Positions 1 to 30,429 of a DNA stretch of 30,429 bases are shown here, in pieces. Source of the stretch: a virus. The stretch spans positions 1-30,429 of IMG/VR virus record IMGVR_UViG_3300021964_000318; one strand, 5' to 3'. Position numbers and translations under genes: made by a program. Each line of letters begins with the position of its first letter. Positions within the stretch are counted from its first letter, which is position 1. The notes beneath the pieces were generated by a model. It saw nothing but the letters and a program-made list of their open reading frames with translations, was not told the origin of the DNA and did not search any database.

Positions 1-1
1 A

Positions 2-155: not shown

Positions 156-165
156 AACAATAATT

Positions 166-397: not shown

Positions 398-399
398 TT

Positions 400-675: not shown

Positions 676-686
676 AACAAAAACAT

Positions 687-1751
687 ATGAGTTTTGAATT
701 ACTAAAGAAAGAAGTACAGAAAGGTATTGATGGACGTAATGGTGGCATACCTATGGGCTTTGACAGGCTCAATAGGTATGTAGGCATTAGGAAATCTATG
801 TACTATCTTATTGGTGGTCTAACAGGCTCAGGTAAGACTAGTTTTATTGATGACGCATTTGTACTTAATCCTGTAGATTGGGCTCTATCACAAGAAGGTA
901 GAGCTTCAGGTATTAAGGTGAAAGTGTGGTATAGATCTATGGAGCGTAGTAGAACTTACAAGCTTGCTAAGTGGACCTCACGTAAAATATTTCTAGACCA
1001 GGGTGTAATAATACCAGTTAATAAACTACTTGGTTGGACAGAGAAGATGACTAAAGATGAGCATGACTTGTTTCTGATGTATGAAAACTATATGAATGAA
1101 CTATCAGAGCTTGTAACAATCATTGATGGTCCTGAGAATCCTGTAGGTATTGCTAAAGAGCTCAAAGCTTATGCACTAGAGCGTGGTGAGATAGTACAAG
1201 AGGACAAGTATAACAAAATATATGTTCCAAACAATCCTAATGAGATAACTCTTGTTGTATTGGATCATATTGGTCTACTTAAGACTACTAGAGACCAACC
1301 AACTAAGAAACAGGCTATTGATAAGATGAGTGATGAGCTCAGGTATGCACGTGACTTCTATGGTCATAGTCCTGTTGTTGTTAGTCAGTTCAACAGATCT
1401 ATATCTAATCCCATCAGGATAAAGAATGGTGATGTTGAACCTCAGCTAGAGGATTTTGCAGATAGCTCAAGCACGCAGAACGATAGTGATGTATGTATGG
1501 CACTATTTGATCCTATGAGATATAATGTTGAAGACCCATCAGGATACAACCTCAACAAGCTAAGAGATGACTATGGTGGTAAGTATTTTAGAAGCTTACG
1601 ACTAATTAAGAACAGCTATGGTGAGGATGATATCAGAATTGGTCTTGCATTTCTTGGCCAGATTGGTATGTTCAAAGAACTACCTAGACGTAGAAACATA
1701 ACTGATGCAGACTATGAGTCTGTAGTAAACAAATCATTTTTTATATCATGA
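687..1751 (+). CDS. DnaB-type replicative helicase (RecA-fold core only)
   Basis: Likely the replicative 5'-3' DNA helicase, an ATP-driven hexameric motor that unwinds the phage fork. The 354-residue protein has a Walker A motif at about 44-51 (GLTGSGKT), a Walker B motif at about 189-193 (LVVLD, followed by HIG), and the DnaB-type VVSQFNRS segment near 230-238. It starts almost directly with the DnaB C-terminal fold. The usual N-terminal primase-interacting domain is absent, so the protein is shorter than bacterial DnaB (about 450-470 aa). It overlaps the SF2 helicase gene by 4 nt (ATGA), implying translational coupling. Confidence in the family is high; its exact role relative to the next helicase is inferred. 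Confidence 0.85.
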   Translation: MSFELLKKEVQKGIDGRNGGIPMGFDRLNRYVGIRKSMYYLIGGLTGSGKTSFIDDAFVLNPVDWALSQEGRASGIKVKVWYRSMERSRTYKLAKWTSRKIFLDQGVIIPVNKLLGWTEKMTKDEHDLFLMYENYMNELSELVTIIDGPENPVGIAKELKAYALERGEIVQEDKYNKIYVPNNPNEITLVVLDHIGLLKTTRDQPTKKQAIDKMSDELRYARDFYGHSPVVVSQFNRSISNPIRIKNGDVEPQLEDFADSSSTQNDSDVCMALFDPMRYNVEDPSGYNLNKLRDDYGGKYFRSLRLIKNSYGEDDIRIGLAFLGQIGMFKELPRRRNITDADYESVVNKSFFIS

Positions 1752-2833
1752 CACTAAGGGATAAACGACAAGCAGAATTTGCTGATGTATGGTGGAATCA
1801 TGGAAAGTTTGGTATCCTAAACTTATGTCCTAGATTTGGTAAGATAAGAACTACAATCAACATCTTGAAGAAGATGAAACCTGATTGTGAGATATTGATT
1901 GCCTATCCTGACAACAAGATCAAACAGTCTTGGATAGAGGACTTTGAGGAGATGAACTATGAGAATGATAACATTACATACACAACACATCTATCCATAC
2001 ATAAACATACAGGAACAGAGTTTGACATAGTTGTTATTGATGAGATACATCTACTATCAGAAGCACAAATAGGTGCATGTGTAGACTTATTTTCTATCAA
2101 CGATAACATACTTGGTCTCACTGGTACACTGTCTAGATGGACAAAGCGTACACTTAATGAAGACTTAGGACTTCACGTGTTAGCTGAGTATCCTATAGAG
2201 AAAGCTATTGAGGAGGGTGTTATTGTAGACTACCAAATCACTGTAGTGAAGGTGTCACTAGATAACATTGTTCATAATGAGTATGGAAAGAAAAAGATTA
2301 AAAAGACAGAGTTGCAACAGTTTAACTATTTGAGCAGCACAATAAATAGAATGATGTACAGTGGTGGAAACACTATGTTTATGAGACTAGCAAGGATGCG
2401 TCTCATCCAGAGTAGCTTAGCTAAGCTAAACAAAACCAAACAGCTGCTACAGCAGTATAAGGATGAGCGTGTTCTTGTATTTTGTGGCACTACAAAGGTG
2501 GCTGATAGCTTAGGTATACCATCTCATCACAGCAAGTCTAAAGACAAAGAAGCCTTTAATAGATTTGCTGAAGGAGAGGGTAAGCATATGGCTGTTGTGA
2601 AGATTGGTAATACAGGAATCACATACAAACCACTGAACAAGGTAATCATAAACTACTTTGATAGCAATGCAGAGAATCTAGCACAAAAGATAAACAGATG
2701 TATGGCCATGGAATACAACACACCTGATAAGAAAGCTGACATATATATCATCTCTTCTAATGAAGGTGTGGAGGCAAAATGGCTTAATAAAGCACTAGAA
2801 TTCTTTGATAAAAAGAAGATTATATTCTTATAA
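1748..2833 (+). CDS. SF2 (DEAD/DEAH-like) helicase
   Basis: A superfamily-2 helicase or translocase of 361 aa with two RecA-like lobes. Visible motifs are motif I at 27-35 (CPRFGKIRT), motif II DEIH at 98-101, motif III-like LTGT at 124-127, a segment VLVFCGTT in lobe 2, and motif VI Q313...R317 (QKINR). Motif I is unusual: the P-loop Gly-Lys is kept but is followed by Ile rather than Thr/Ser. Phage relatives such as T4 UvsW act in recombination and fork remodelling, and that role is inferred here. It is coupled to the DnaB-like gene, and its 3' end lies next to a promoter for the Sak4-like gene. Confidence 0.8.
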   Translation: MTLRDKRQAEFADVWWNHGKFGILNLCPRFGKIRTTINILKKMKPDCEILIAYPDNKIKQSWIEDFEEMNYENDNITYTTHLSIHKHTGTEFDIVVIDEIHLLSEAQIGACVDLFSINDNILGLTGTLSRWTKRTLNEDLGLHVLAEYPIEKAIEEGVIVDYQITVVKVSLDNIVHNEYGKKKIKKTELQQFNYLSSTINRMMYSGGNTMFMRLARMRLIQSSLAKLNKTKQLLQQYKDERVLVFCGTTKVADSLGIPSHHSKSKDKEAFNRFAEGEGKHMAVVKIGNTGITYKPLNKVIINYFDSNAENLAQKINRCMAMEYNTPDKKADIYIISSNEGVEAKWLNKALEFFDKKKIIFL

Positions 2834-2838
2834 TTTTG

Positions 2839-2846
2839 TATATTTG
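2839..2846 (+). promoter_or_regulatory. Bacteroidota-type -7 box (TATATTTG) before the Sak4-like gene
   Basis: TATATTTG matches the Bacteroidota -7 consensus TAnnTTTG exactly and lies 40 nt before the ATG at 2887. It is preceded directly by TTTTG, as at 11978 and 23489. No TTG is seen at the usual -33 spacing. It is flanked by weak inverted arms, TCTTATA (2825-2831) and TGTAAGA (2844-2850). Confidence 0.55.
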
Positions 2847-2886
2847 TAAGACTATATTAATAACTACATAATAAATAAAAAAGCAA

Positions 2887-3555
2887 ATGAGTTCAAAATT
2901 AATTGGAGTTGTTGGTGAAACTGGAACAGGTAAATCAACAGCTATTAAACACTTAGATCCAAAAGAAACTTACATTATCAACGTTGCAAGCAAAGAATTG
3001 CCTTTCAAAGGATCAGGCAAGCTTTACAATGAAGATAATAGAAACTACAAAGAGATCGATGATCCAACAGAGATTACACGTTTACTTAAAACTATATCTG
3101 AGAAAGCCCCACATATTAAGAATATTGTCATAGAAGACAGTAATTATCTAATGGGCTTTAGAATGGTAGAGAAAGCTATGGAAACAGGCTTTACTAAGTT
3201 TAGTGTAATGGCTAAAGACATGGTTGACATGTTCAGAACTGCACGCTCATTACGAGATGATTTGTGTATATTCTACTTCTCTCATCCAGAAACTATTGAA
3301 GATGCTGGTGAGATTGTAGGATACAAAATCAAAACTGCAGGGAAGCTTATTGATAACCAAGTCTTACTTGAAGGCTTACTAACTGTTTGTTTGTACACGG
3401 ATGTTGAAGAAACCAAAGATGGTGTAATATACAGCTTCCTTACAAACAGATATAGAAAGAAGCCTGCTAAGAGTCCTGATGGTATGTTTCACGAAACAAA
3501 AATACCTAATGATTTACAATATGTAAAAGACCATGTAATAGAATACTATAATTAA
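2887..3555 (+). CDS. Sak4-like AAA/RecA-fold ATPase (single-strand annealing recombinase type)
   Basis: The 222-residue protein has a Walker A at residues 10-18 (GETGTGKST) close to the N-terminus and a Walker B-like segment NIVIEDSNYL near residue 80. This layout matches phage Sak4-type (AAA_24) ATPases, which load on single-stranded DNA and promote annealing or recombination, usually with a cognate SSB. The next gene is a putative SSB, which fits that pairing. It is the first gene after the promoter at 2839. Gp4-like or other P-loop ATPases are an alternative. The recombination role is inferred from family and context. Confidence 0.75.
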   Translation: MSSKLIGVVGETGTGKSTAIKHLDPKETYIINVASKELPFKGSGKLYNEDNRNYKEIDDPTEITRLLKTISEKAPHIKNIVIEDSNYLMGFRMVEKAMETGFTKFSVMAKDMVDMFRTARSLRDDLCIFYFSHPETIEDAGEIVGYKIKTAGKLIDNQVLLEGLLTVCLYTDVEETKDGVIYSFLTNRYRKKPAKSPDGMFHETKIPNDLQYVKDHVIEYYN

Positions 3556-4529: not shown

Positions 4530-5537
4530 ATGATTGGAGGAGTAAAGAAAACAAGAGTGACTGCAGAAGCTATTCTCTCTAAAATTTCTGAGTATGATAT
4601 TTTCAGGTTTTATATGCCTAGTAAAGATTGGAAACTAGGACAGGCAACTTATTCTCCATTTAGAGATGAAAGAAATCCTTCATTTCTAATTGGTGTTAGA
4701 GGAGATTCTATAAACTTTATTGATTTTGGTGACACTAGCATGAAAGGAGATTGTTTTGAGTTTGTAAAGAAGCTCTATAACGTTCTCACCTTTAATGAAG
4801 TGCTTATAAAGATTGATAATGATTTTAGTCTTGGGATAGGTACAGGAGTTAGTTCACAAGAATATAAAAGGATAATTAAAGAATATGCTCAACCAGAGAT
4901 GGTGGCTAAAGACTATTCTTTTATTCAGGTGAAGACGAGAAACTTCACACATGAAGAGCTAGCTTATTGGAATGAATACTATCAAGACATTGAGGATCTC
5001 AAAGTTAACAACATCTTTTCTATTGCTGAGGTGTATCTAAACAAGAAGCGTATTGTTATACCAGACAATGAGCTTAGGTTTGGATATCTCTATGATGGTC
5101 ATTGGAAGATATATAGACCATTCTCTGATAGAAGATGGAAGTGGATGCCTAATAATGTACCAATTACTGCTATGGATGGTAAAGATGATATCACAGATTG
5201 TGATGTTGCATTCATCAATAAGAGCAAGAAGGACTACATGGTTATGAAGAAACTATATCCGTGTTGTTGTGCTGTTCAGAATGAGGGTATGGGATGTTTC
5301 TCTGATGAGAACGTGCAATACCTACTAGACAATTCTAGAAAACAGATACTATCATTTGATAGTGATGAGACAGGCGTATCAAACAGTAAAAAGATTACTG
5401 AAATGTTTGGATTTGACTATTGTAATGTACCCAGAAAGTTCCTTAAAGAAGGAATTAAAGATTGGGCAGACCTTGCAAAAGTTCACGGACTTAAAGTGAT
5501 CGAAGAATATTTAATAAATAAAAATATAATACAATAA
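4530..5537 (+). CDS. DnaG-type DNA primase with degenerate zinc-binding and TOPRIM motifs
   Basis: A likely primase that makes RNA primers for lagging-strand synthesis. The 335-aa protein has an N-terminal zinc-domain relic at 42-52 (SPFRDERNPSF), which aligns with the family's CPFHxExxPSF but lacks the cysteines. In the TOPRIM region it has INKSKKD near 229-235 where the catalytic Glu is normally found, a QNEG segment, and DSDETG at 277-282 (metal-binding Asp pair). A KDWADLAK segment follows. ATG 4530 is chosen because a more upstream TTG (4503) lies inside the terminator stem. Loss of canonical residues suggests a divergent enzyme; similar changes occur in phage and plasmid primases, to my recollection. 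Confidence 0.7.
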   Translation: MIGGVKKTRVTAEAILSKISEYDIFRFYMPSKDWKLGQATYSPFRDERNPSFLIGVRGDSINFIDFGDTSMKGDCFEFVKKLYNVLTFNEVLIKIDNDFSLGIGTGVSSQEYKRIIKEYAQPEMVAKDYSFIQVKTRNFTHEELAYWNEYYQDIEDLKVNNIFSIAEVYLNKKRIVIPDNELRFGYLYDGHWKIYRPFSDRRWKWMPNNVPITAMDGKDDITDCDVAFINKSKKDYMVMKKLYPCCCAVQNEGMGCFSDENVQYLLDNSRKQILSFDSDETGVSNSKKITEMFGFDYCNVPRKFLKEGIKDWADLAKVHGLKVIEEYLINKNIIQ

Positions 5538-5539
5538 AA

Positions 5540-6337
5540 ATGGAAAATACAGTAATTCACAACACTGCACAAGCTAAAAACACAATGCTGAGTGCACCAG
5601 TACCCCAACAAACTAAAACCTATAAACCTGTAAGTCATAGACAGCTTATGGATTTAACACTAGAGAGTATATACCAATCAGGTTTTACTATTGAGAGTCA
5701 AAACTATTCAACAGCTAGAAGTGGTAATATTGCTACAGCTCGATATGCAATTAGTAATGTTGCAGACAATGAGATGAAGCTACAGATAGCCTGGCAGAAT
5801 AGCTACGATAGAACAGCCTCTCTAAAGTTTGCTATGGGTGTAAAGATTATGGTGTGTAGTAATGGTATGGTGTCAGGAGACATGGGATCTTTTAGAAAGA
5901 TTCACAGAGGAGACATACAAACATTTACACCAGGAGCCATCACTGAATATATTAAACAGGGTGGAGATGCATTCAAGTGTATACAAGATGACAGAGAGAT
6001 TATGAAGACTATCGATGTATCTGAACAAGGACAAGCAGAACTATTAGGTAGACTATTTATTCAGGAGAATATTATTAACACTAAGCAGCTGAACATAGCC
6101 AAGCGTGAGTTGAGCACACCAACGCATGACTATGGTCATCCTAACAGTTTATGGGAGCTATACAATCATGTTACATTTGCAATGAAAGAAACTCACCCAA
6201 CAGACTGGATGAGCAGCCATATTAAAACACATGAGTTTTTCAAGAACTATGGCAATCTTGCAACAGAGAATATGCAAGCAGATGCAGATATGTTTGCAGC
6301 TGTACTTAGTAATCAATTAGATATGTTTGAATCATGA
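5540..6337 (+). CDS. DUF932 family protein
   Basis: A 265-aa protein resembling the DUF932 phage/plasmid family. The key segment is near residues 88-116, an Asn-Ser-Tyr-Asp-Arg stretch followed by LKFAMGVKIMVCSNGMVSGD with the conserved CSNG. A second conserved block reads SLWELYNHVTFAMKETHP. The biochemical function of DUF932 is not established; it is common in replication regions of phages and plasmids, often beside recombination genes. It starts 3 nt after the primase stop and overlaps the next gene by 4 nt, so it is part of the same operon. Confidence 0.7.
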   Translation: MENTVIHNTAQAKNTMLSAPVPQQTKTYKPVSHRQLMDLTLESIYQSGFTIESQNYSTARSGNIATARYAISNVADNEMKLQIAWQNSYDRTASLKFAMGVKIMVCSNGMVSGDMGSFRKIHRGDIQTFTPGAITEYIKQGGDAFKCIQDDREIMKTIDVSEQGQAELLGRLFIQENIINTKQLNIAKRELSTPTHDYGHPNSLWELYNHVTFAMKETHPTDWMSSHIKTHEFFKNYGNLATENMQADADMFAAVLSNQLDMFES

Positions 6338-6567
6338 CAGTTAATGAATATGTAAACAACCTTACACAGTTGTTAAAGAAAGATCCTGAGATAGCTGAAT
6401 TAGAAGTAATCTATTCTCAGGATGATGAGGGTAATACTTATCAGAAGGTACATTTTCATGCATCACTTGTGAAGACAAAGGGACTGAAGAATCAGTATGT
6501 TGAGGTGCTAATAAATGTAGATGAAGATGAGATAGACAAAGGTAGAACTGCATTATGTATTAACTGA
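6334..6567 (+). CDS. hypothetical protein, 77 aa
   Basis: No family recognised. A small acidic protein (MTVNEYVNNLTQLLKKDPE...) with an N-terminal helix and then predicted beta strands around YQKVHFHASL and YVEVLINVDEDE. Its ATG overlaps the stop of the DUF932 gene (ATGA), showing translational coupling. The following zinc-ribbon gene begins one base after its stop. No membrane or signal segment is seen. Confidence 0.7.
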   Translation: MTVNEYVNNLTQLLKKDPEIAELEVIYSQDDEGNTYQKVHFHASLVKTKGLKNQYVEVLINVDEDEIDKGRTALCIN

Positions 6568-8078: not shown

Positions 8079-10367
8079 ATGAGATTAGAAAATCAAAAAC
8101 AATCAAACGTCCTAGCAACAGGACCAGCTAACAAGAGTATAGGAATGTCCCTAGACTTAGATTCTGCACAGGTATTGATGCAGATGTTAAGTAAGAATCT
8201 CTATTCAGATGCAATAGGCTCTACAGTTAGAGAGTGTGCCAGTAATGCACTGGACAGTCATAGAAGAGCAGGAGTAAATAAACCTATTCTAGTGTCTCTT
8301 GTAAGAAATGACAGTAACAACTATGAATTCTCTGTTGAGGATTTTGGTATTGGTTTGGACGCAAATGATGTGGAGAAGATTATCAGTAAGTATGGTAAGT
8401 CTACTAAGCGTGACAGTGATACAGAGCTTGGTATGATGGGTCTTGGTTTCAAAGCCCCTCTAGCTTATGCTAGTAGCTTCTACTTCAGATGTAGAAAGGA
8501 TGGTGTAGAGCGTAAGTATATGATGTATGAAGGTGAGGACACTAACACTATTGATCTAATATATGAAAAACCAACAACAGAAAGTAATGGCGTAAAAGTG
8601 ATTATACCTATCAAATGGTCGGACCGTTGGGACTTTACAAAGAAGATTAAAGAACAGCTGGCTTATTTTGAGCATGTGTATTTTAATGTAGATGATATAG
8701 ATAACAACTTTGTGATTCACAGATCCAACTTGTTTCAGTTCTCTGAACTATCTTCTGATAGCTATCTACATGTGTGTCTTGATGATGTATATTATCCACT
8801 AGACTTTAAGAAGCTTGGTATAGATAGGATAGAAATACCTGTAGGATTGAGACTTAACTTAACAGATGGTGTATTTCCTACACCAAACCGTGAGGCTCTT
8901 AGATACACACCTGAAGCAAAGAAAGCTATTCTAGAAAAGATTACACGCTTTGCTAATGTGATGACACAACGTTATAACCAGTCAGTCACTGTAAATAGTG
9001 ATGTGTATGCTGTATTGAAATACTATACATCTAACAGTAGATATATCAACATGTTTGGTCAAGAGTTTGACTACAATCAGCTTGCTGCATTTGCTACAGC
9101 TAGAATTGCTACACCTAAGATACCTGGTGTAGATACATTAGAGCTACATACGCTTGACAGACATACATTTGGTTCACTCCTTACTAACTACAGACGTTCT
9201 TACAAGTATGAAAATGGTAGAATGTATGAGATAAAATATGATGATAATTGGAGTTCAGGTGTAGAATGGCGTGAAAAAAATAGAAGACACTATCTACTTA
9301 ATGGTGACATGCGAGGGCATAAGAAAGCCTATCTTAGAGAACTTGCAGAAGACCATGAAGACAGAACTGTGTATTTTATCAAAGAGAGAACTAAACAATC
9401 AACTAGAATGCAACTTAAAGGAAGCAAAGGGTACAAGGTGTTTCTAAAGCTTAACAACTATCCTAAGGATCAATGGAGAACTGTAATTAAAGAGTGGCAG
9501 CACATTGAGAGTCTTCTACTTGCTGATGTCATTAATGCTGATGCTATTGAGGTGCCTCAAGATTGGATAGATGCTAGAAAGCAAACCACGGTGGCTAAGA
9601 TGAAAGCAACTAAAGCTGCTAAAGGTGCAAAGCTTGAAGGTGATTTCAATTGTAAGAAAGCTGAAGACCTTCTTAGGTATAATGATGGTAGAAACTGTAA
9701 GTTTGTTGCTGGTCGTCTTAATGTTCAAACAATAGAAGAGGGTAACACTCTTTATGTTTATACACATCATGATGACTTTATGAAGATTGATAAGATGTAT
9801 GAGGATACCAAAAAGATGGGTATTGAATACATTACACTATCACAACGTGAACTTGATGTTATAGAAGAGTCAGGAGAGACAGTGGACAATCTAGTATCTT
9901 ATGATGATTTTGTTAAGGGTCATGAGAAGTTTGTTCAGATAGTTACAGCTGTACGTATTCACAGATTCTGTAATAAGTATAGTGATGTGTTTGATAAAAG
10001 AAGTTATATTAAAGAAGTGTACTCTGAATTAACAACTGATCTACAAACTCTTACAGACTATCGAGCGGTCTACCTATATCCTAGTGCTCATAGTAGTTTT
10101 GGAGATCTTGATGCTTTGATGAAAATAGCTGAAGAGAACAACTTGTTTGATGATACATATTATCAACTACAAGAAAAGGTTCATCAAATACTAAAGACTC
10201 ACTACTATTTCAATACACTTGCAAAGGTGATGAATTATTCTCATACATCTAGTGAACTTCTAGATTGCATGGCACAACTAATGACTTGTAATGGGCTGGA
10301 AGTGAATGAAGAGTATAAGTATCACTATCTAAAGAAAGCGCTGAAGGACAGCGAGGAAACAGAGTAA
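8079..10367 (+). CDS. rIIA: rIIA-like protein with GHKL ATPase domain
   Basis: A 762-aa protein with an N-terminal GHKL (gyrase/Hsp90/histidine kinase/MutL) ATP-binding fold. The N-box is at 51-60 (RECASNALDS, with Glu52 and Asn56), the G1 box at 87-93 (EDFGIGL), and the G2 box at about 116-124 (ELGMMGLGF). T4 rIIA shares this architecture and works with rIIB in rapid-lysis inhibition and protection against exclusion systems; its exact mechanism is unresolved. The next gene is rIIB-like, the classical neighbour order. A strong terminator directly follows, so rIIA and rIIB are separately terminated. The C-terminal half has no motif I recognise. Confidence 0.78.
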   Translation: MRLENQKQSNVLATGPANKSIGMSLDLDSAQVLMQMLSKNLYSDAIGSTVRECASNALDSHRRAGVNKPILVSLVRNDSNNYEFSVEDFGIGLDANDVEKIISKYGKSTKRDSDTELGMMGLGFKAPLAYASSFYFRCRKDGVERKYMMYEGEDTNTIDLIYEKPTTESNGVKVIIPIKWSDRWDFTKKIKEQLAYFEHVYFNVDDIDNNFVIHRSNLFQFSELSSDSYLHVCLDDVYYPLDFKKLGIDRIEIPVGLRLNLTDGVFPTPNREALRYTPEAKKAILEKITRFANVMTQRYNQSVTVNSDVYAVLKYYTSNSRYINMFGQEFDYNQLAAFATARIATPKIPGVDTLELHTLDRHTFGSLLTNYRRSYKYENGRMYEIKYDDNWSSGVEWREKNRRHYLLNGDMRGHKKAYLRELAEDHEDRTVYFIKERTKQSTRMQLKGSKGYKVFLKLNNYPKDQWRTVIKEWQHIESLLLADVINADAIEVPQDWIDARKQTTVAKMKATKAAKGAKLEGDFNCKKAEDLLRYNDGRNCKFVAGRLNVQTIEEGNTLYVYTHHDDFMKIDKMYEDTKKMGIEYITLSQRELDVIEESGETVDNLVSYDDFVKGHEKFVQIVTAVRIHRFCNKYSDVFDKRSYIKEVYSELTTDLQTLTDYRAVYLYPSAHSSFGDLDALMKIAEENNLFDDTYYQLQEKVHQILKTHYYFNTLAKVMNYSHTSSELLDCMAQLMTCNGLEVNEEYKYHYLKKALKDSEETE

Positions 10368-10369
10368 AT

Positions 10370-10404
10370 ATGTGGGGGATTGTTTGACAGTCTCCCATAT
10401 TTTT
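10370..10404 (+). terminator. intrinsic terminator between rIIA and rIIB
   Basis: GGGGGATTG (10374-10382) pairs with CAGTCTCCC (10388-10396) around loop TTTGA, allowing two G-T wobbles. The stem extends by four more base pairs (10370-10373 with 10397-10400) and is followed by T4 and C. Confidence 0.85.
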
Positions 10405-10436
10405 CGTATATTAATAAATAAATAAAAATTAAAAAC

Positions 10437-11951
10437 ATGAGTAAATTTCTAAGTTTGGATTGGTTCAAAGATAAAGTGGATCATTCAGTAGAGAAGGTGA
10501 TTGAGAAGAAACTTGATGCCTTAATTAACCAGCAAGATGAAGAGGCTGGACAACCATTTAGCAGCGCTAAGCTTGTAAATGATGTACTAACTATTGTGAT
10601 GAACGATGGTTCTGTAATTACTAAGATGGATGCTACAGAAGACCACTATGCAGCTGTACAGCTAGCAAAGAATGTAGCAGATTTGTATTCTATTGTTAGT
10701 GACCCTAGTGTTGTTAGTGAGAAAATTCAAGAAGAGAGAAAGATCGCAAGACTGTTAGCTCTTCGTGAGGGACTCTCTATTCTTAGAGAAAGTGGTGAGT
10801 TCACAATTGATGGAGATAGTGTATACTTCAAAGGTATATCTAGATCTCTACCACAACTACTGGTTGAAGAACTTATTGATGCTGTAGCAGATGCTAAATC
10901 TTTAAACATGCCACTTAATGAGCATGAAGAGTATACATCTCTTAAACGCTTCTTTATGTGGTGTGCACTTAATCCAAGAGCTGAGGTGGCACATGAGCTG
11001 TACAGATTCTTGAAAGAGAACAGTTTCCGTATCACCAAGCAAGGGTTCTTTGTAGCACTACGTAATGTTGTTACACTACATGGATCTCCAGAGCTTGTAC
11101 ACTTTATTTCTAACACTTACAACAAGGTGAAAGCTGTCTGGAAGAAGAGTCCAGATGACTATAGTGTGTTTCTAGAAAATGGTGAATACAAGCTTGTACA
11201 CAACGATAGTCTGTTCCGTGAGGAAACACACACTAGTACAACTTGTAAAGACTGTTATGGTGAAGGTGGATATTATGATGATGGTGATTATTATGAAGAT
11301 GAAGATGAGTGGAATGAAGGAGACTGGATAGATTGTGACACTTGTGATGGATCAGGTGAAGTGGAAGAGTATGAGTATACAACAAGTGTTAAGGTGGACC
11401 ATGGAGAAGAGATAGGTAAACTTACAGAGCTCTATCTAGATCTACCTAATAGACATGAGAATCGCTTCACAGATGATTGGACTAAAACATTTGACATACG
11501 TGTAGGTAAGGTGGTTAACATGCCTAAAGAACAATGTAACTGGTCAACACAAGATTGTGCTGCAGCTGGTTTACATTTCACTTCTGACCAGATACACTAT
11601 GTAGGATGTGGTGATCAGTCTGTTCTAGTTCTTATCAATCCAATGAAAGTGGTTGGTATTGGTACACACAAGGGTAGATGCTATGAGTATTTACCAATCA
11701 TGACTGTACCAAGAGATGAGGCTACAACTATTCTTCATGACAATCAGTTTGACACTCTACAACTTGATGAGGAGTATGCAATCCGTGAACTTGAGGATCT
11801 TGAGATTAAAGTTCAGGAAGGATTCGTAGCTGAAAGTTCTAAGTATGAATTCAATTTACCAAATGTTAGCAGCGCTGACATACGTAATATTGTAGGAAGC
11901 CTAGAAGATATGAAGGCTAAGATACAAGACAGAGTTGTATCTTTAGATTAA
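10437..11951 (+). CDS. rIIB: rIIB-like protein with inserted DnaJ-type zinc motif
   Basis: A 504-aa protein resembling rIIB. It has a C-terminal block with the family pattern of a Cys, a GLH motif (CAAAGLHFTS, Cys374, His380), and a middle segment SFRITKQGFFVALRNVV like the rIIB 'dGxFiAyK' region. Residues 270-303 carry two CxxCxGxG-like knuckles (C270/C273 and C300/C303, the second reading CDTCDGSG) separated by a very acidic, Tyr-rich spacer. This is the layout of a DnaJ zinc finger reduced to one pair of knuckles. T4 rIIB lacks such a finger to my knowledge. Its role with rIIA is inferred from family. Confidence 0.75.
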   Translation: MSKFLSLDWFKDKVDHSVEKVIEKKLDALINQQDEEAGQPFSSAKLVNDVLTIVMNDGSVITKMDATEDHYAAVQLAKNVADLYSIVSDPSVVSEKIQEERKIARLLALREGLSILRESGEFTIDGDSVYFKGISRSLPQLLVEELIDAVADAKSLNMPLNEHEEYTSLKRFFMWCALNPRAEVAHELYRFLKENSFRITKQGFFVALRNVVTLHGSPELVHFISNTYNKVKAVWKKSPDDYSVFLENGEYKLVHNDSLFREETHTSTTCKDCYGEGGYYDDGDYYEDEDEWNEGDWIDCDTCDGSGEVEEYEYTTSVKVDHGEEIGKLTELYLDLPNRHENRFTDDWTKTFDIRVGKVVNMPKEQCNWSTQDCAAAGLHFTSDQIHYVGCGDQSVLVLINPMKVVGIGTHKGRCYEYLPIMTVPRDEATTILHDNQFDTLQLDEEYAIRELEDLEIKVQEGFVAESSKYEFNLPNVSSADIRNIVGSLEDMKAKIQDRVVSLD

Positions 11952-15229: not shown

Positions 15230-15548
15230 AGAATTCAACCAGACGTACGAACTAATTTTGGACGGACCAGGGTTAGTTATAGATGTTCCTGCAGTGATTC
15301 ATTATATGAATCAAGTGTTTGATGACCTATTAAAGATAGAAGGTTTTAAGTGCAAAGAGATTTCAACCATTCGTGGATTACCAAGAGTGGATACAAATCT
15401 TGATGAGCTTTTACCTTTTGTTGGACGCATCATTAACCAAGAGTTAGAAGAGAAACTAAGCATCATCCTTAAAGTGGAATTTGAGGTTGAGCAGAGATTG
15501 TTGTCTTTAAATTTAGATAAACACGGTAAACCTATAAACAATGAATAA
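15216..15548 (+). CDS. hypothetical protein, 110 aa
   Basis: No family recognised. The N-terminal part (YELILDGPGLVIDVPAVIHY) looks beta/alpha, and the C-terminal half is helical with an acidic, hydrophobic pattern. It overlaps its upstream neighbour by 14 nt and the nrdB start by 8 nt, so it is embedded in the nrd operon. A role in RNR or nucleotide metabolism is suggested only by position. Confidence 0.65.
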   Translation: MRTAKEFNQTYELILDGPGLVIDVPAVIHYMNQVFDDLLKIEGFKCKEISTIRGLPRVDTNLDELLPFVGRIINQELEEKLSIILKVEFEVEQRLLSLNLDKHGKPINNE

Positions 15549-16521
15549 GAACATTTTTATGCCAAGGGTCAATATTCTCCCATATGAATATCCACAATTA
15601 CTAGAATACAAGGACGCAATCAGACACTCGTATTGGATTGATACAGAGTTTAACTTCACTGAAGACATACAAGACTTCAAGGTGACAATTAGTGACCAAG
15701 AGCGTGATGTTATCAAGAAGACTATGCTTGCTATAGCTCAGATTGAGGTGAATGTAAAAACCTTTTGGGGTGACTTGTATAAACGTATGCCTATCACAGA
15801 GATAGGTGATGTGGGATTCACATTTGCTGAATCAGAAGTGAGACATAAAGATGCGTATGCCAGACTGTTAAGAATTCTTGGACTAGAAGAAGAGTTTCAG
15901 AATGTAATTGAGGTGCCTGCTATTGAAGGTAGAATCAAGTACCTGAAGAAATATCTAGATGGTACAAGATCTAGAGATGACAAGATGTACACAAAGTCTG
16001 TGCTGTTGTTTTCTTTATTTATAGAGCACGTTAGCCTGTTTAGTCAATTCTTGATTATGATGAGCTTTAACAAAGAGAAGAATGTTCTGAAGGGAATATC
16101 TAATGTTGTTGAAGCTACAAGTAAAGAAGAAGAGATACACGGTAACTTTGGAGCAGAGCTTATCAATATTATTAAGAAAGAGAACCCTGAGTGGTTTGAT
16201 GAAGAGTTTGAACAACTTATCTATTCAGCATGTAAGAAAGCTTATGAGGCTGAGTGTGGTATATTAGATTGGATCTTTGAGCAAGGAGAGCTTGATTTCC
16301 TACCTAAACAAACAATAGAGCACTTCATTATGAACCGTTTCAACAACTCACTTAAGAGAATTGGAATGGATTCACTGTTTGATGTTGACGCTGAGTTATT
16401 AGCATCAACTAAATGGTTTGATATCGAGATCACTGCTACTAAAGAGGGAGACTTCTTTTACAAGAAGCAGGTGGATTATAACAAAAAGAGTAAGAGTATA
16501 ACTGTAGATGATTTATTTTAA
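15541..16521 (+). CDS. nrdB: class Ia-type ribonucleotide reductase small subunit (beta)
   Basis: A 326-aa radical-generating subunit that houses the di-metal/tyrosyl cofactor for dNTP synthesis. Metal ligands visible are E69, E99-x2-H102 (in FAESEVRH), E162 (IEHVSLF) and E197-x2-H200 (EEEIH). Tyr106, four residues after H102, is in the position of the E. coli Tyr122 radical. The C-terminal VDDLF is the docking tail that binds the large subunit. It is immediately followed by nrdA (3-nt spacer). An Fe/Fe centre is assumed; Mn or an NrdF-like metal cannot be ruled out from sequence. Confidence 0.93.
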   Translation: MNKNIFMPRVNILPYEYPQLLEYKDAIRHSYWIDTEFNFTEDIQDFKVTISDQERDVIKKTMLAIAQIEVNVKTFWGDLYKRMPITEIGDVGFTFAESEVRHKDAYARLLRILGLEEEFQNVIEVPAIEGRIKYLKKYLDGTRSRDDKMYTKSVLLFSLFIEHVSLFSQFLIMMSFNKEKNVLKGISNVVEATSKEEEIHGNFGAELINIIKKENPEWFDEEFEQLIYSACKKAYEAECGILDWIFEQGELDFLPKQTIEHFIMNRFNNSLKRIGMDSLFDVDAELLASTKWFDIEITATKEGDFFYKKQVDYNKKSKSITVDDLF

Positions 16522-16523
16522 AA

Positions 16524-18152
16524 ATGGAATATAAAAGATATTACTGGATCAATGAAGACAGTAGAACATTCTTGTCTAGAGGATATCTAGATGAGTCTCC
16601 TGAACAAAGGATACGAGATATAGCAAATGTAGCTGAGAAGTATCTAAACATGCGTGACTTTGCACACAAGTTTGAAGACTACATGTCTAGAGGCTTCTAT
16701 AGCTTATCAACACCTGTTTGGATAAACTTTGGAAAAAGCAAAGGTTTACCAATTAGCTGCTATGGATCTAATGTAGATGATACACTAGATAGCATTCTAA
16801 ATGCAGGACGTGAGATAGGAATGATGTCAAAGTATGGTGGTGGTACTTCTGCTTACTTAGGGAACATTAGACCAAGAGGTACTAATATTAGTACAGGAGG
16901 TAAGGCTGATGGACCAATACATTATGCTAGAATGTATGACACAGTTGTAGATGTATGTAAACAATCTGCAGCAAGACGTGGTGCATGTGCTGTATATCTA
17001 CCTGTAGAGCATGCAGACATAGAAGAGTTTCTAGACATTGGTACAGAGGGTAATCCTATTCAGAATCTTCAGTATGGTATCACAGTGAGTGATGCCTGGT
17101 TGAAGAGTATGAAAGCTGGTAGCAAAGAGAAGCGTAAGATATGGGCTAAAATCATTCAAAGACGTAATGAGTTTGGTTTTCCATACATTATGTTTAAGGA
17201 CAACTCAAACAATGAGACATCTCCTTATAAAGAGCTGGGGTATGAAATTACAGCAAGCAACTTATGTAGTGAGATACAGCTTCCTACAGACACCTTTCAT
17301 AGTTTTGTATGCTGTCTAGGGTCTATTAACTTGTTGCATTGGGACGAGATTATAGAAACAGATGCAATAGAAACTTATGTATTGTTCTTAAATGCTGTCA
17401 TGAATGAGTTTGTCCAGAAAGCAGAGCATCTTCCAGGGATGAGAAGAGCTTATAGATTTGCAAAAGAACACAGAGCTATTGGTGTTGGTGTTTTAGGTTA
17501 CCACTCTCTATTTCAGTCTAAGCTTATAGAGTTTGAATCCCTAGAAGCAAAACAGATGAACCACAAAATCTTTAGTACGTTAAAAGAACGCACTGAAGCA
17601 GCATCTAGATGGTTGCATGATGCTAAGGGATACAAGTCTATTAGAGAAGGCTATGCTAACACCACACTTATGGCTATAGCACCAACTAAGTCTAGTTCAT
17701 TCATTCACGGTCAGGTGAGTATGGGTATTGAGCCTATCAAGTCTAACTATTTCATCAAGGATCTTGCTAAGAGTAAGACAGTGTATAAGAATCCGTTCTT
17801 AGAAGCTGAGCTTGAGAAGTATGATATGAATAACGATGAGACTTGGGAGTCTATTCTTAAGAAGGATGGATCTGTACAGCATTTGAAGTTTCCAACTAAA
17901 GCTGTATTCAAGTCCTTTATAGAGATTAGTCCTAAGGAGATAGTGCTACAAGCTGCTCAAAGACAGAAGTTTATTGATCAGTCACAGAGTTTGAACCTAA
18001 TGATACACCCAACTGTATCTGCTAAGGATATCAACTTACTCTATCTCTATGCACATGAAGAAGGTGTCAAAACCTTATATTATCAGTTTAGCCAGAGCTC
18101 TGCACAAGCGTTTGCAAGAAACATTCTTGAGTGTGCTAGCTGTGAAGGCTAA
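16524..18152 (+). CDS. nrdA: class Ia-type ribonucleotide reductase large subunit (alpha), no ATP cone
   Basis: A 542-aa catalytic subunit that reduces NDPs to dNDPs. Active-site residues visible are C79 (ISCYG), N246/C248/E250 (NLCSEI), C263 as the partner cysteine, Y519-Y520 (radical-transfer TLYYQF), and C-terminal C537/C540 (ECASCEG) for thiol reduction. The N-terminal ATP-cone domain, present in E. coli NrdA (761 aa), is missing, so dATP inhibition at that site is probably lost; this is common in phage enzymes. Gene order is nrdB-nrdA, the reverse of the usual bacterial order. It ends the operon, followed by a structured intergenic region. Confidence 0.93.
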   Translation: MEYKRYYWINEDSRTFLSRGYLDESPEQRIRDIANVAEKYLNMRDFAHKFEDYMSRGFYSLSTPVWINFGKSKGLPISCYGSNVDDTLDSILNAGREIGMMSKYGGGTSAYLGNIRPRGTNISTGGKADGPIHYARMYDTVVDVCKQSAARRGACAVYLPVEHADIEEFLDIGTEGNPIQNLQYGITVSDAWLKSMKAGSKEKRKIWAKIIQRRNEFGFPYIMFKDNSNNETSPYKELGYEITASNLCSEIQLPTDTFHSFVCCLGSINLLHWDEIIETDAIETYVLFLNAVMNEFVQKAEHLPGMRRAYRFAKEHRAIGVGVLGYHSLFQSKLIEFESLEAKQMNHKIFSTLKERTEAASRWLHDAKGYKSIREGYANTTLMAIAPTKSSSFIHGQVSMGIEPIKSNYFIKDLAKSKTVYKNPFLEAELEKYDMNNDETWESILKKDGSVQHLKFPTKAVFKSFIEISPKEIVLQAAQRQKFIDQSQSLNLMIHPTVSAKDINLLYLYAHEEGVKTLYYQFSQSSAQAFARNILECASCEG

Positions 18153-20197: not shown

Positions 20198-20486
20198 AAA
20201 ACCGTACAAAGCATTATTAGGAAACAGAATTTATGTTGAGATTCCTAAGAAAGAAGAAAGTAAACTTATAGTTGACGAGAACACTAAAGAAGAATTACAA
20301 CGTCAGATGTTAAAGAAGATGTCTAGACTCACTGTATTTGATGTTGGGGACATAGTAACTAACATTAAAGCAGGTGATTCAGTATTAGTAGATCCAGGAA
20401 AGTTAAAAGATGCTATGGTGATTCCTTTGTCTGATGATAAAGATGTACTACTTGTATCCCCATTTGATGTAATACATGTTTGGTAA
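20190..20486 (+). CDS. GroES-like (Cpn10-type) small protein
   Basis: A 98-aa protein. The pattern ALLGNRIYVEIP, then ESKLIVDE, a VGDIVTNIKAGDSVLVD segment, and DVLLVSPFDVIHVW matches the beta-barrel co-chaperonin layout: N-terminal LxxRIxVxIP, central VG..V..IK.GD.VL.D, and terminal DI. Phages such as T4 (gp31) encode a GroES substitute for capsid folding with host GroEL. ATG 20190 is chosen over the in-frame TTG at 20181, which lies in the upstream gene. The mobile-loop region is not clearly identified, so the family call is moderate. A generic small barrel protein is the alternative. Confidence 0.5.
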   Translation: MAKKPYKALLGNRIYVEIPKKEESKLIVDENTKEELQRQMLKKMSRLTVFDVGDIVTNIKAGDSVLVDPGKLKDAMVIPLSDDKDVLLVSPFDVIHVW

Positions 20487-21250
20487 TGAGCTCTCTCCCT
20501 TTTATATCGTGCAAGTGCATCACGTACGGACGAGTTGATACACTAGAAGAAGCATTGTATAGCTTTCTCATACAAGACTATCCAAAAGATAAGTGTGAAT
20601 TAGTTATAGTGAATGATTACCCTGAACAAAAGTTGGTCTATGACCATCCTCAGGTGACTATTTACAATCTGGATAGTACATTTCCTTTAATAGGAGAGAA
20701 AGAGAACTATGCTATTGAGCGATGTAAAGGGGAGCTTATTGCTGTTTGGGATGATGATGATGTAGCAATGTCTAATCATCTACAGAACATAGCTAAACAC
20801 TGGAAGCCAGACACTAACATTATACACTGGGAAACAGGTGTGTTCTACAATGAGCCATCTATCACATCTATAAGTGGTGTAGGTAACTCAGGAATAGTGT
20901 ATAGTAAAGATGTGTGGGAGAAGATAGGTAAGAGTCCACTAGAGAATGCTGGTGGAGATATGACCTTGACAAATAGAATACATGCACTAGGAGGCAAACT
21001 TAATGTAAAGATGCCACCAGACCAAGCTTCTTGGTTTTATATGTGGGGTGGCAGAGGATATCACCAATCAGGTCAAGGAACAGACGATGGATCTAGACCT
21101 AATATTATTCAAAGACACTCAGCACACATAGAACAACTTAGAGCACAAGGGAAGATTCCTACAGGAGAGATACAACTTATGCCTAAGTGGAAGAAAGACT
21201 ACGCACAAATGTTAAAAGATTATGTCTCAAATTCATTTATTTCTAGTTAA
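20486..21250 (+). CDS. GT-A-type glycosyltransferase (GT2-like)
   Basis: A 254-aa family-2-like transferase. N-terminal SCKCITYGRVDTLEEAL and a segment LVIVNDYPEQ resemble the GT2 nucleotide-sugar site, and residues 88-92 (WDDDD) contain the DxD that binds metal and nucleotide-sugar. A GG.D-type segment ENAGGDMTLT follows. It probably transfers one sugar to a phage or host acceptor; the acceptor is unknown. It overlaps the GroES-like stop (TAATG, ATG 20486) and the next glycosyltransferase by 29 nt, so the pair acts in one unit. Confidence 0.8.
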   Translation: MSSLPFISCKCITYGRVDTLEEALYSFLIQDYPKDKCELVIVNDYPEQKLVYDHPQVTIYNLDSTFPLIGEKENYAIERCKGELIAVWDDDDVAMSNHLQNIAKHWKPDTNIIHWETGVFYNEPSITSISGVGNSGIVYSKDVWEKIGKSPLENAGGDMTLTNRIHALGGKLNVKMPPDQASWFYMWGGRGYHQSGQGTDDGSRPNIIQRHSAHIEQLRAQGKIPTGEIQLMPKWKKDYAQMLKDYVSNSFISS

Positions 21251-24031: not shown

Positions 24032-25051
24032 TTAATAGTTTAGGTTATACTTTTGTTTTATGTTATTCACTGCACTAGCATAATACCATGTGCAATGCTT
24101 TTTACTCTCTTCGCTGTTTAACACAACGTCTAGATGAGGATCTTTCATAGGATCTGCACCAGAGTGATACTTTCCTTTATAGAAGCAAGGATATCCTCCT
24201 TGTTCTGTTGCTACAATACCAGCGTTGTGGTATATTGAGCATCTATCTAGTTTAGATATAGGGTCTGGTCCCCATGCAAATTCAAGTTCAGGAACCACCT
24301 TTGTTTCTTGTTCTCTAAGCCATAAGTTCCAAAGCACCGCCCACATGTCTGCACACCATGATTGGTAACCTTCGCTCTCACTCTTGAAGAACTCTCTGTT
24401 GATCTTCTGCAGATAGGTTCTAATGAGTATACAATCATTCATCACCTTACTCCAGAATGTAGAGTCTACGTTTTTCAACAAATATTGTGCCCCACCAGAG
24501 TGTTCGTTGTTAACTTCAGCTATCTCTCTAGTTATTCCTATGACACTTGCAATTTCTGCTAAGACATCTCTGTGCTTATATTCTTCAAGCTTCTCAGGAA
24601 GCACCTGATTCACCTTACTGTCAAAGTACTTAGCGTTTATGTAGCTATTGGTATCTGACAGATAGTTTACATCATCTTCTAAGAACTTACTTATGTCAAA
24701 CTTGTCTGTAAACAATATGTCTGAGTCACAGTAGAACACTGCTTTGTTTGACATTTCTGGATTCTCCTTGAAGTATTTCCAGAGTAACCACGGACGTAAT
24801 ACAGGAATGTATATACCTAGTAGTTTACTTACATCATTCTCTTCATCTTTGTAGAAGTTGAACTCAGCTTCTGGATATAGGTCTACAATCTTTTGCCACT
24901 TGTCATTGAATGGTCTGGTGGCAGGTGTAAATATCAGAACAATTGCGTTCTCTATTTGACCCATCTCTTTTAAACTTTCTAGCCAAAGATGTACTTGCCA
25001 TGTATAGTAAGTATCATCTGGCTGTGCACAGATAAACTTTAAATCTCTCAT
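24032..25051 (-). CDS. GT-A-type glycosyltransferase
   Basis: A 339-aa protein starting MRDLKFICAQPDDTYYTWQV. The nucleotide-sugar motif is VFYCDSDILF (D109-S-D111), the DxD metal site of GT-A enzymes. Conserved hydrophobic segments (PWLLWKYF) precede it. A C-terminal HNAGIVATEQG block with Trp/His fits an acceptor side. It is a single gene between the two poly-Thr genes, so it might glycosylate them; this is inference. The sugar donor is unknown. Confidence 0.75.
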   Translation of the reverse strand: MRDLKFICAQPDDTYYTWQVHLWLESLKEMGQIENAIVLIFTPATRPFNDKWQKIVDLYPEAEFNFYKDEENDVSKLLGIYIPVLRPWLLWKYFKENPEMSNKAVFYCDSDILFTDKFDISKFLEDDVNYLSDTNSYINAKYFDSKVNQVLPEKLEEYKHRDVLAEIASVIGITREIAEVNNEHSGGAQYLLKNVDSTFWSKVMNDCILIRTYLQKINREFFKSESEGYQSWCADMWAVLWNLWLREQETKVVPELEFAWGPDPISKLDRCSIYHNAGIVATEQGGYPCFYKGKYHSGADPMKDPHLDVVLNSEESKKHCTWYYASAVNNIKQKYNLNY

Positions 25052-27580: not shown

Positions 27581-27910
27581 TTATTTAATTTTAGGGTATA
27601 TGTTAGCAATCCACTGAATGATTAAGGCTCCAGCAGTAATGAGACCAACTGTCCAAGAAAACTTCTTTTTAAACTCTTCTTGTTTTTTGATTTGTGTCTC
27701 AAGCACTTCCATTTTTTTCTTGAGTTCATCAATATCATTAATAAACCCTCCTGTTTTTGTCAGGGAGTTTCCTAATATTGCATCAACTACTTGCGTTAAT
27801 TTTGTATCGATGGAGTTCATTTTTTCCTCCAACTCGTACAGACGTTGATCCATGTTTTTTAATTCTTGTTTTACTTGCTGCTGAAAAGCAGATAGATTAC
27901 TGGCGGCCAT
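27581..27910 (-). CDS. XhlA-like coiled-coil/TM protein of the lysis cassette
   Basis: A 109-aa protein. A long coiled coil (QQQVKQELKNMDQRLYELEE and ELKKKMEVLETQIKKQEEF) is followed by a C-terminal membrane segment (VGLITAGALIIQWIANI) and a basic tail. Bacillus PBSX XhlA has this plan and sits before holin xhlB and amidase xlyA; the same order occurs here. It is the first gene after the minus-strand promoter near 28030, with a long leader. Confidence 0.65.
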   Translation of the reverse strand: MAASNLSAFQQQVKQELKNMDQRLYELEEKMNSIDTKLTQVVDAILGNSLTKTGGFINDIDELKKKMEVLETQIKKQEEFKKKFSWTVGLITAGALIIQWIANIYPKIK

Positions 27911-28033: not shown

Positions 28034-28110
28034 ATTAAACTTTACAAGAAAAGAAAGCCCTTACACCAAATTATTTACATAATATAGCATAAACTTTTCA
28101 TTTATTTTGC

Positions 28111-28118
28111 TATCTTTG
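28111..28118 (+). promoter_or_regulatory. Bacteroidota-type -7 box for the fusion gene
   Basis: TATCTTTG matches TAnnTTTG and is preceded by TTTTGC. It lies 18 nt before the ATG at 28137, divergent from the minus-strand promoter at 28026. No clear -33 TTG. Confidence 0.55.
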
Positions 28119-28136
28119 TTTGTAAAATCAAATATT

Positions 28137-30429
28137 ATGCCTAGAAGCTGGACTGGATTCAAATCTAAGATAAAAGATTGGATAATTAATAATGTGCCTA
28201 CTAACAAAAGAGTGCTGGATGTGGGACCTGGTGTAGGAACATACTCAGATTTAATACGTCATAAGGGATACCAAATAGATGCTGTAGAGATCTTTCGTCC
28301 TTACATAGAAAAGTATGGGTTGATTGAGAAACATGACAATGTTTACTGTAATGATATACTCAATTTTGATATATCAGACTATGACTTTATTATTCTAGGA
28401 GATGTGCTAGAGCATATACCAGCAGACAAAGCTATAGAGCTTATAAATAAGATTATAAAATTAGGTAAAGAGTGTCTTGTTGCTGTACCATATATGATGG
28501 AACAGGGAGAATATCAAGGCAATGTACATGAGAGCCATCATCAGTCAGATCTTACAGTTGACGTGATGAAAGAGCGCTATCCTAAACTAGAGCTTCTATA
28601 TGGAAATAATGACTATGGATATTATGTCTATACAAAAGAGAAGATGCACAAGGCATATGTTCTTTATGCAAACTCTGCATATTATGATGTAGTGTGCATG
28701 GCTGTAAAGAGTATAAAAGAGGCAAGTAACATTCCTGTTATTGTATACATGGTCAATTCTGATTGGAAAGTGCCTGGTGCACAGACAGTTAAGTGGTCTC
28801 TACATGGTAATTATATAAAGAAAAGTAATTATATTGATAGGAATGATAAAAGAGTGTTTGAGTTTTTAGCACAAAGACCAGCCATCATTGCTGATGCACT
28901 AGATAATCATGCACATAGTGTAGCATACATAGACTCAGATACAATAGTAACACGATATATAGATAACATATTTAGTTATTATCCAGAACAATGCACACAC
29001 CCATACTTTGTACAGGGTATATATGACTATCTATTTATAAATGGACGTGGTGGTGTAGAGACAAGAGATGAGTTACATAAGAGTTTAGAGCATGCAGCTT
29101 GTGAACTCTTTGATGTAGATCAATCTGTAAGAGATAAATATAGACAAACAGGATACTTTGTTGCAGGACAACACTCACGCAAGTGGATTGATGAGTGGAT
29201 GTGGATGTGTAATCATCCAGCTGTTGTAAAGAATCCACAGCTCTATGCACCCTATCATGAAGAAACACTAGCTAATGTGCTTCTGTGGAAACATAATATA
29301 CAAGAGGGACTACCTCTAATGTATAGAAACTATAAAGGAGAGATTAGTGTTGATGATATAAAGTTTACAGGAGAGATGTATCATGAGTCAGAATGGGTGG
29401 CTATTCCTGCAAAGAAAGAAGAACTCATGGCGTTTCATGGAGAAAAAAACACCACTGTGATGCAACATTTATTAGATCAATTATGTAAGAAGGTGTTATT
29501 TTTAGCGCCCCATCTATCTACAGGTGGTATGCCTGAGTTCCTACTTAAGAGAATAAGATCTCTACATGGATTTCAGATATATGTTGTAGAATGGGCCAAC
29601 TATAGTGATGAGTATGTTGTACAAAAGAATCAGATAAAGAAACTTGTGTCCAACTTCTATACATTAGGAGAAGACAAGACAGAGCTCATAGATATTATCA
29701 AAGACAATAACATTGATATTGTACACATGGATGAGATGGCTGAGTGTCTAGGTGAACAGTCAGAAGAAGTACTTCCATTACTATATGCTAACGATAGAAC
29801 CTGGAAGATTATAGAGACATGTCATAATATTTCATTCAATGCTGATGCAGAAAAACAATATCATCCTGATGCATATGCATTCTGTACACCGTATCATCTA
29901 GAGACATTTGCTAATATGCCATCACATAAAGATGTTACAGAGTTTCCTATAGATCCTGTAATATATGACTGGCAATCTAAACTAAATGCTAAGTATGACT
30001 TAGAGCTTGATCCTAGTAAGAAACATGTTGTAAATATAGGACTGTGGACTAAGGGTAAGAATCAAGGAGAAGGATTAGCTCTAGCTAGAAAGTTTCCAGA
30101 TGTAGAGTTTCATTTTGTTGGTAATCAAGCAGTTAACTTCAAAGAATACTGGGAACCATTAATGAAAGATGTTCCAGATAATGTAACTATATGGGGTGAG
30201 CGCAGTGATACAGATAAGTTCTTACTAGCTGCAGATGTCTTCATGTTCAACTCTACGTGGGAATGTAATCCACTTGTGCTCAGAGAAGCTATATCATATG
30301 GCCTACCAATACTTGCACGCAACCTTCCACAGTATAAAAATATGTTTACAGCATACATAGAAGATCTACATCCTATGAAGATGAAGAATCAACTATCTAA
30401 GCTTTTAAGTACCAAGAGTACGTACAATG
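28137..30429 (+). CDS. methyltransferase / GT-A / GT-B glycosyltransferase fusion (3' end outside window)
   Basis: ATG 28137 opens a frame that is still open at base 30429, at least 764 codons. Residues about 1-170 are a SAM-dependent methyltransferase with motif I VLDVGPGVG (26-34) and a DVLEHIP segment at 89-95. Residues about 173-440 are a GT-A domain with AYIDSDT (D266/D268). Residues about 452-764 are a GT-B domain with VLFLAPHLSTGGMPE, VNIGLWTKGKNQGEG near 631-645, and the E709-x7-E717 motif (ECNPLVLRE). Its role is inferred: stepwise synthesis or capping of a methylated glycan on a virion or host surface. It has its own promoter, divergent from the lysis operon. Confidence 0.85.
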   Translation, partial: MPRSWTGFKSKIKDWIINNVPTNKRVLDVGPGVGTYSDLIRHKGYQIDAVEIFRPYIEKYGLIEKHDNVYCNDILNFDISDYDFIILGDVLEHIPADKAIELINKIIKLGKECLVAVPYMMEQGEYQGNVHESHHQSDLTVDVMKERYPKLELLYGNNDYGYYVYTKEKMHKAYVLYANSAYYDVVCMAVKSIKEASNIPVIVYMVNSDWKVPGAQTVKWSLHGNYIKKSNYIDRNDKRVFEFLAQRPAIIADALDNHAHSVAYIDSDTIVTRYIDNIFSYYPEQCTHPYFVQGIYDYLFINGRGGVETRDELHKSLEHAACELFDVDQSVRDKYRQTGYFVAGQHSRKWIDEWMWMCNHPAVVKNPQLYAPYHEETLANVLLWKHNIQEGLPLMYRNYKGEISVDDIKFTGEMYHESEWVAIPAKKEELMAFHGEKNTTVMQHLLDQLCKKVLFLAPHLSTGGMPEFLLKRIRSLHGFQIYVVEWANYSDEYVVQKNQIKKLVSNFYTLGEDKTELIDIIKDNNIDIVHMDEMAECLGEQSEEVLPLLYANDRTWKIIETCHNISFNADAEKQYHPDAYAFCTPYHLETFANMPSHKDVTEFPIDPVIYDWQSKLNAKYDLELDPSKKHVVNIGLWTKGKNQGEGLALARKFPDVEFHFVGNQAVNFKEYWEPLMKDVPDNVTIWGERSDTDKFLLAADVFMFNSTWECNPLVLREAISYGLPILARNLPQYKNMFTAYIEDLHPMKMKNQLSKLLSTKSTYN

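Follow-up and report, generated by a model that had tools for sequence, protein, structure and literature searches.

A multi-domain glycosyltransferase and methyltransferase fusion of environmental phages as a candidate builder of tail-fibre glycans

Enzymes of the TibC/AAH family put sugars directly on bacterial adhesin proteins (PMC4358343), and viral enzymes are known that combine several steps of glycan synthesis in a single polypeptide. In A064R of the chlorovirus PBCV-1 a methyltransferase is joined to two rhamnosyltransferases, and this single chain extends and methyl-caps the virion glycan (PMC9614988), A111/114R of the same virus holds three transferases in one chain (PMC9614988, PMC7826918), and mimivirus L230, a collagen lysyl hydroxylase/glucosyltransferase, glucosylates viral collagen (PMC9614988). 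Here we describe a phage gene that begins at position 28,137 of the virus record IMGVR_UViG_3300021964_000318, the whole 30,429 bases of which make up the window analysed, and that encodes a methyltransferase (MT) and two glycosyltransferases (GTs), of the GT-A and GT-B folds, before being cut by the end of the record. Its relatives lie beside serine/threonine-rich (S/T-rich) tail-fibre genes in many phages, and the enzyme therefore probably serves to coat the phage's own fibres with sugar. We consider it likely that a phage-made, cytosolic multi-enzyme assembles an O-glycan on the S/T-rich tail fibre of the phage that encodes it.

Three enzymes in one reading frame

The gene and its domains in the window are:

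28137..30429, plus strand: MT-GTA-GTB multi-domain gene; 3' end lost at the record end, relatives running about 380-390 codons further (BAHT-like domain)
28137..28631, plus strand: class I S-adenosylmethionine (SAM)-dependent MT domain, residues 1-165; motif LDVGPG, Pfam Methyltransf_23
28638..29501, plus strand: GT-A fold glycosyltransferase domain, residues 168-455; DSD at residues 266-268
29502..30428, plus strand: GT-B (GT4-like) glycosyltransferase domain, residues 456-764; ECNPLVLRE at 30261-30287

From the ATG at 28137 to the final base of the record a single frame runs for 764 codons without a stop, and as the record ends inside the gene, the end of the protein is not visible from the window alone. 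A TTG 30 bases upstream is a possible alternative start, but relatives begin at the ATG (MP.S). A preliminary description, made from the sequence alone, had reported VLDVGPGVG, DSD and ECNPLVLRE in one open reading frame (ORF). This is confirmed: the motifs occupy residues 26-34 (28212-28238), part of YIDSDTIV at residues 264-271 (28926-28949) and residues 709-717 (30261-30287), with no stop between them, and the domain identities are firm. The same description had the gene divergently transcribed and continuing beyond the window, and both are seen, in the minus-strand neighbour at 27581-27910 and in the frame still open at the record end. Compared with the full-length relative L002 (IMG/VR 3300025093_000023; 1154 residues, 79.5% identical across the shared part), codon positions 1, 2 and 3 differ by 17, 10 and 38%, position 2 being lowest in each domain, a pattern by which MT, GT-A and GT-B all look protein-constrained. 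Directly 5' of the ATG, TATCTTTG at 28100-28137 resembles the Bacteroidota -7 element, TAnnTTTG, and may hint at a Bacteroidota host, but the motif occurs 30 times on the window's plus strand.

The MT domain carries both motif I and the Methyltransf_23 profile of class I SAM methyltransferases (residues 21-107, 2e-10) and is conserved across 20 sequences, including a stand-alone gene of a huge phage (L005; LR756511.1), where, at 5219-6564, it directly follows a possible GT-A-like gene with no convincing family match. The GT-A part gave no match in a Pfam search; its AlphaFold model has a GT-A fold (predicted local distance difference test 93.5, predicted template-modelling score (pTM) 0.92), contains the DxD and matches GT24, GT6 and GT8 structures at probability 1.00, with a template-modelling (TM) score of about 0.5 and 10-13% identity, for which reason the CAZy family is left unassigned. 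Both DSD aspartates are invariant among 38 sequences. In the GT-B domain the fold and a conserved E-x7-E motif are both present; Glycos_transf_1 (Pfam) matches residues 628-739 at 1.3e-10, and Foldseek matches of the full L002 model include GT4 structures. When the whole window protein was used as one query, public phages gave matches at the domain level only, and for its GT-A part they gave none.

Phage glycosyltransferases and methyltransferases can modify DNA, and these domains might accordingly be nucleic-acid or metabolite enzymes acting on DNA or a small molecule. No tool result points there, the recognisable domains resemble GTs and MTs of proteins, polysaccharides or small molecules, and the relative of the C-terminal part (below) is a protein O-glycosyltransferase; we regard such a role as very improbable.

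A TibC-like fourth domain and the fibres beside it

That further domains may follow, as the preliminary description supposed, is borne out by L002, whose gene is preceded by the same gene order as in the window (phrog_4417 gene, amidase, small genes) and whose extra residues, some 380-390, form a BAHT/TibC-like domain. Against TIGR04414 (autotransporter O-heptosyltransferase, BAHT; family cut-off 200 bits) this C-terminal third scores 268.7 bits, and L003 (the same chain without the MT), L004 and Microcystis phage Mel-JY01 also exceed the cut-off at 263.9, 304.7 and 317.4 bits. The C-terminal part of L002 matches TibC at 6.8e-52, and its predicted model aligns with TibC (4RAP) over 371 columns at a target TM of 0.85, keeping the N-terminal beta-barrel and the catalytic fold. 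The chain thus comprises at least four enzymes, and we infer the fourth for the window protein itself, the missing 3' part of whose gene would encode the BAHT-like domain. Its presence, which suggests a protein O-glycan built from its first sugar, had escaped the preliminary description, as had the adjoining S/T-rich fibre gene. Interdomain placement in the full L002 model is not confident (pTM 0.44), so the domains may be arranged as beads on a string.

Scanned against viral sequences, the BAHT-like domain has at least 472 relatives; 80 loci were kept, 56 of them non-redundant after near-duplicate removal. All four domains, MT-GTA-GTB-BAHT, are fused in 16 of the 56, the MT alone is missing in another 16 (GTA-GTB-BAHT), 14 have GTB-BAHT, and in the remaining ten the parts N-terminal to BAHT are different or missing. 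The preliminary description had held that a stop or frameshift separating the domains elsewhere would speak against the fusion: in the 16 loci all domains are indeed joined, but L064, L072 and L074/L075 encode MT-GTA and GTB-BAHT as separate genes, which has the look of modules being gained, lost and split apart, not of a broken gene. Fusion and fission of one domain set suggest, in turn, that the domains act in one pathway. The full fusion found no relative among bacterial and archaeal genomes, and the BAHT part alone found six distant relatives only.

Taking residue roles from the TibC study (PMC4358343), equivalents of Asp110, Thr226 and Lys230 are kept in 56/56 loci, as are the iron-finger cysteines 339, 342, 358 and 370 (iron binding is predicted only). 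Trp305 has its equivalent in 55/56, and position 300 (Pro in TibC) has the Ser of AAH in 55/56. The BAHT-like domain is homologous to TibC and probably similar in mechanism. No autotransporter partner accompanies it; S/T-rich phage fibre genes hold that position. The enzyme could instead remodel glycans of the host surface, whether lipopolysaccharide (LPS), capsule or exopolysaccharide (EPS), for example to exclude competing phages, with fibre proximity reflecting a shared host-interaction region. The GT-B does resemble WaaG and other LPS/EPS glycosyltransferases, the BAHT-like domain is distantly similar to GT9/LPS-heptosyltransferase, and neighbours of the relatives include a NoeE-like sulfotransferase and NodU-like genes, familiar from the decoration of oligosaccharides. 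We nevertheless think this unlikely, as TIGR04414 gives 232-336 bits in most phage matches against less than 35 for LPS heptosyltransferase models, the iron finger kept throughout is a BAHT trait, and the genes examined included no recognisable flippase or membrane-anchored GT, although no systematic search for these was made.

Evidence for glycosylation of the phage's own fibre comes from GTSGTSG genes, which encode S/T-rich G-X-Y repeats and match tail-fibre and collagen-like minor-tail PHROGs. Of the 35 non-redundant loci whose downstream sequence extends for 6 kb or more, 28 have a GTSG gene starting within 6 kb downstream, all 28 on the opposite strand (convergent); upstream, the count is 5/40. 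L002 and L003 both have GTSG genes close downstream. In the converse scan, contigs were picked by the GTSG DNA pattern alone and then searched for TIGR04414, which was found in 21/49 GTSG-repeat records as opposed to 1/31 random viral records (Fisher p = 6.7e-5), the latter showing the GTSG pattern in 0/31. In 13 of these 21 records the TIGR04414 match lies within 10 kb of GTSG repeats, where 5.4 would be expected. Several loci with no GTSG gene within 6 kb, among them L018, L022 and L048, have other long S/T-rich proteins nearby, L048 additionally a PTNTPTPT repeat protein. In L048, a mucin-like PTNTPTPTLTPTNTATQT repeat protein of 615 residues (35% S+T) is encoded at 4720-6564, in divergent orientation to the GTA-GTB-BAHT gene.

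The target might also be a different protein of the virion, such as that of the capsid or the tail tube, or one of the host. Seven of the 35 loci lack a GTSG gene in this 6-kb range, the O-methyltransferase and glycosyltransferases of mycobacteriophage Corndog are proposed to modify the capsid (PMC4351075), and the capsid is glycosylated in chloroviruses (PMC9614988); but the repeated placement beside S/T-rich fibres argues for the adjoining fibre, and we hold any other protein target to be a rather remote prospect.

The cultured Mel-JY01 (PP395634.1, L282) has a related module: a protein of 1226 residues that has a GT4 and a BAHT-like domain, annotated 'methyltransferase FkbM' in the deposited record, lies two genes downstream of a GTSG-repeat ORF of at least 1016 residues on the same strand. 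As an isolate, it makes the idea of fibre glycosylation testable. In its first 3,052 bases (1-3052), the deposited minus-strand coding sequences 1-651 and 739-2298 are antisense VPEVPLVP readings of the plus-strand GTSG gene; comparable antisense ORFs accompany the GTSG genes of L002 and L004, and such fibres may consequently be misannotated in databases.

A proposed route of glycan assembly

Computation shows what the enzymes are, that their catalytic residues are conserved, that the domains are fused or split across phages, and where the fibre genes lie; around this we propose an acceptor, donor sugars, an order of action and a methyl cap, as follows. The BAHT-like domain would transfer the first sugar, heptose or similar, to Ser/Thr of the fibre encoded by the adjoining gene, the acceptor sites lying in its S/T-rich repeats, whether collagen-like (GTSGTSG) or of another kind; GT-B and GT-A would then add sugars, and the N-terminal MT would cap the chain by O-methylation. 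The preliminary description had likewise supposed that the chain could extend and methyl-cap a glycan, which A064R does in PBCV-1. The lack of any strongly hydrophobic segment in the protein counts in favour of this scheme.

Several points weigh against it. Fibre glycosylation is a prediction from the genes, and the window has neither the BAHT-like domain nor a fibre gene, both of which come from relatives, the nearest being syntenic. The matches of GTSG proteins to PHROGs arise partly through low-complexity repeats, the random viral records are a control matched neither by host nor by lineage, and shared ancestry lowers the independence of the loci. Within the domain, the adenine-contacting Arg286 of TibC is replaced by Thr in 51/56 loci (Arg only in L004), so that the donor may not be ADP-heptose, and in 56/56 the beta-hairpin thumb segment has 24-25 residues against 34 in TibC, 9-10 shorter. 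Heptose kinase is present in just 4/44 BAHT records and epimerase-like genes in 9/44 (kinase in 0/31 random records); with heptose genes missing from most, the sugar may be host-derived or different.

In view of the missing Arg286 and thumb, we call the domain BAHT-like and do not file it as an ADP-heptose-using BAHT. The thumb segment joins TibC dimers into a dodecameric ring (PMC4358343); given the shortened segment, a TibC-like ring was set aside, and oligomerisation probably differs. Heptose-pathway genes were likewise rejected as a general marker of the donor on the frequencies above. In the stretch that separates the BAHT gene from the fibre, heptose-7-phosphate kinase homologues occur in L018, L022 and L044, and ADP-heptose epimerase homologues in L018 and L022 (all below curated cut-offs); heptose kinase/epimerase motifs are common to L025 and L044, and an HxGH nucleotidyltransferase-like ORF is found in L018 and L022. 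These genes beside the BAHT fusion suggest heptose in at least that subgroup. At L018 7530-10469 and L022 11135-14017, kinase-like, HxGH nucleotidyltransferase-like, HAD-phosphatase-like and epimerase-like genes form a cluster adjoining the fusion.

Accessory genes and comparison with known systems

Two further genes in the window may bear on glycan synthesis:

24032..25051, minus strand: DxD glycosyltransferase-like gene; phrog_4417 at 6.8e-59; counterparts in L002 (476-1495) and L003 (4706-5725), in the same order
20480..21250, plus strand: GT2 glycosyltransferase; Pfam Glycos_transf_2 at 3.2e-9

The first is a putative glycosyltransferase by its CDSD motif, and the second may belong to the glycan genes of the phage. 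Of the loci retrieved, 20 have sulfotransferase-like motifs, one Pfam-confirmed, and some loci have APS-kinase and NodU-type carbamoyltransferase genes. Sulfotransferase and APS-kinase genes lie near the BAHT fusions at L018 10854-11696, L048 12474-12926 and other loci, and suggest sulfated glycans. Elsewhere, the window encodes a phage ribonucleotide reductase, small subunit then large (15541-18152; phrog_86, phrog_84), and a RIIA- and RIIB-like gene pair (8079-11951). In a search of public phage records nothing came close to RIIA, whose best matches are diverse and below 60% identity, with no host lineage indicated.

We lean, by a narrow preference, towards a widespread and unrecognised phage system in which TibC-like priming of GTSG triple helices is followed by extension and methyl capping in the fused enzyme, with optional heptose synthesis, sulfation or carbamoylation. 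In the open-access literature we found no paper on the BAHT-like fusion, BAHT in phages, GTSGTSG phage proteins or a link of such a fusion to GTSG fibres, and none that matched on glycosylated tail fibres. If the system is as proposed, TibC-type protein glycosylation is not confined to bacterial adhesins but reaches the fibres of phages, there is a chemical reason for the great length of GTSG fibres in environmental phages, some of the glycosyltransferases still unplaced in viral metagenomes are accounted for, and phages, like chloroviruses, can have virion glycans made by modular fusion enzymes. Stiffness, protease resistance or adsorption would change with a coat of sugar on the fibre shaft.

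Among described proteins, A0A7S9XE01 of Virus NIOZ-UU157 (985 aa) is 65% identical over the GT-A domain and has a length that fits a candidate GTA-GTB-BAHT, although it is annotated merely as a GT family 1 domain protein. Corndog gp35-gp38 (O-MT, GTs, GlcNAc-T; PMC4351075) are likewise a phage set of MT and GTs thought to decorate a virion protein, but as separate genes among capsid genes and with no BAHT-like domain reported. Mimivirus L230 shares the principle of a viral multi-domain enzyme glycosylating a viral collagen-like protein, with a hydroxylysine-linked sugar and domains of other kinds. In A064R and A111/114R, too, one viral polypeptide adds successive sugars to the virion glycan, and A064R also adds a methyl cap; it is, by analogy, a precedent for GT-GT-MT chains. 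It acts, however, on an already begun N-glycan in a eukaryotic host, has no protein-priming domain and places its MT last rather than first, so that the two are likened by function. The likeness to TibC/AAH (TIGR04414; PDB 4RAP, 4RB4; PMC4358343) extends to the fold, the catalytic Asp, the Lys/Thr phosphate contacts, Trp305 and the four-Cys iron finger, and to a gene that adjoins a large repetitive adhesin in TibC/AAH and a fibre in the phages; the phage domain differs in being fused to GT-B, GT-A and MT, and in having as its partner a phage fibre rather than an autotransporter.
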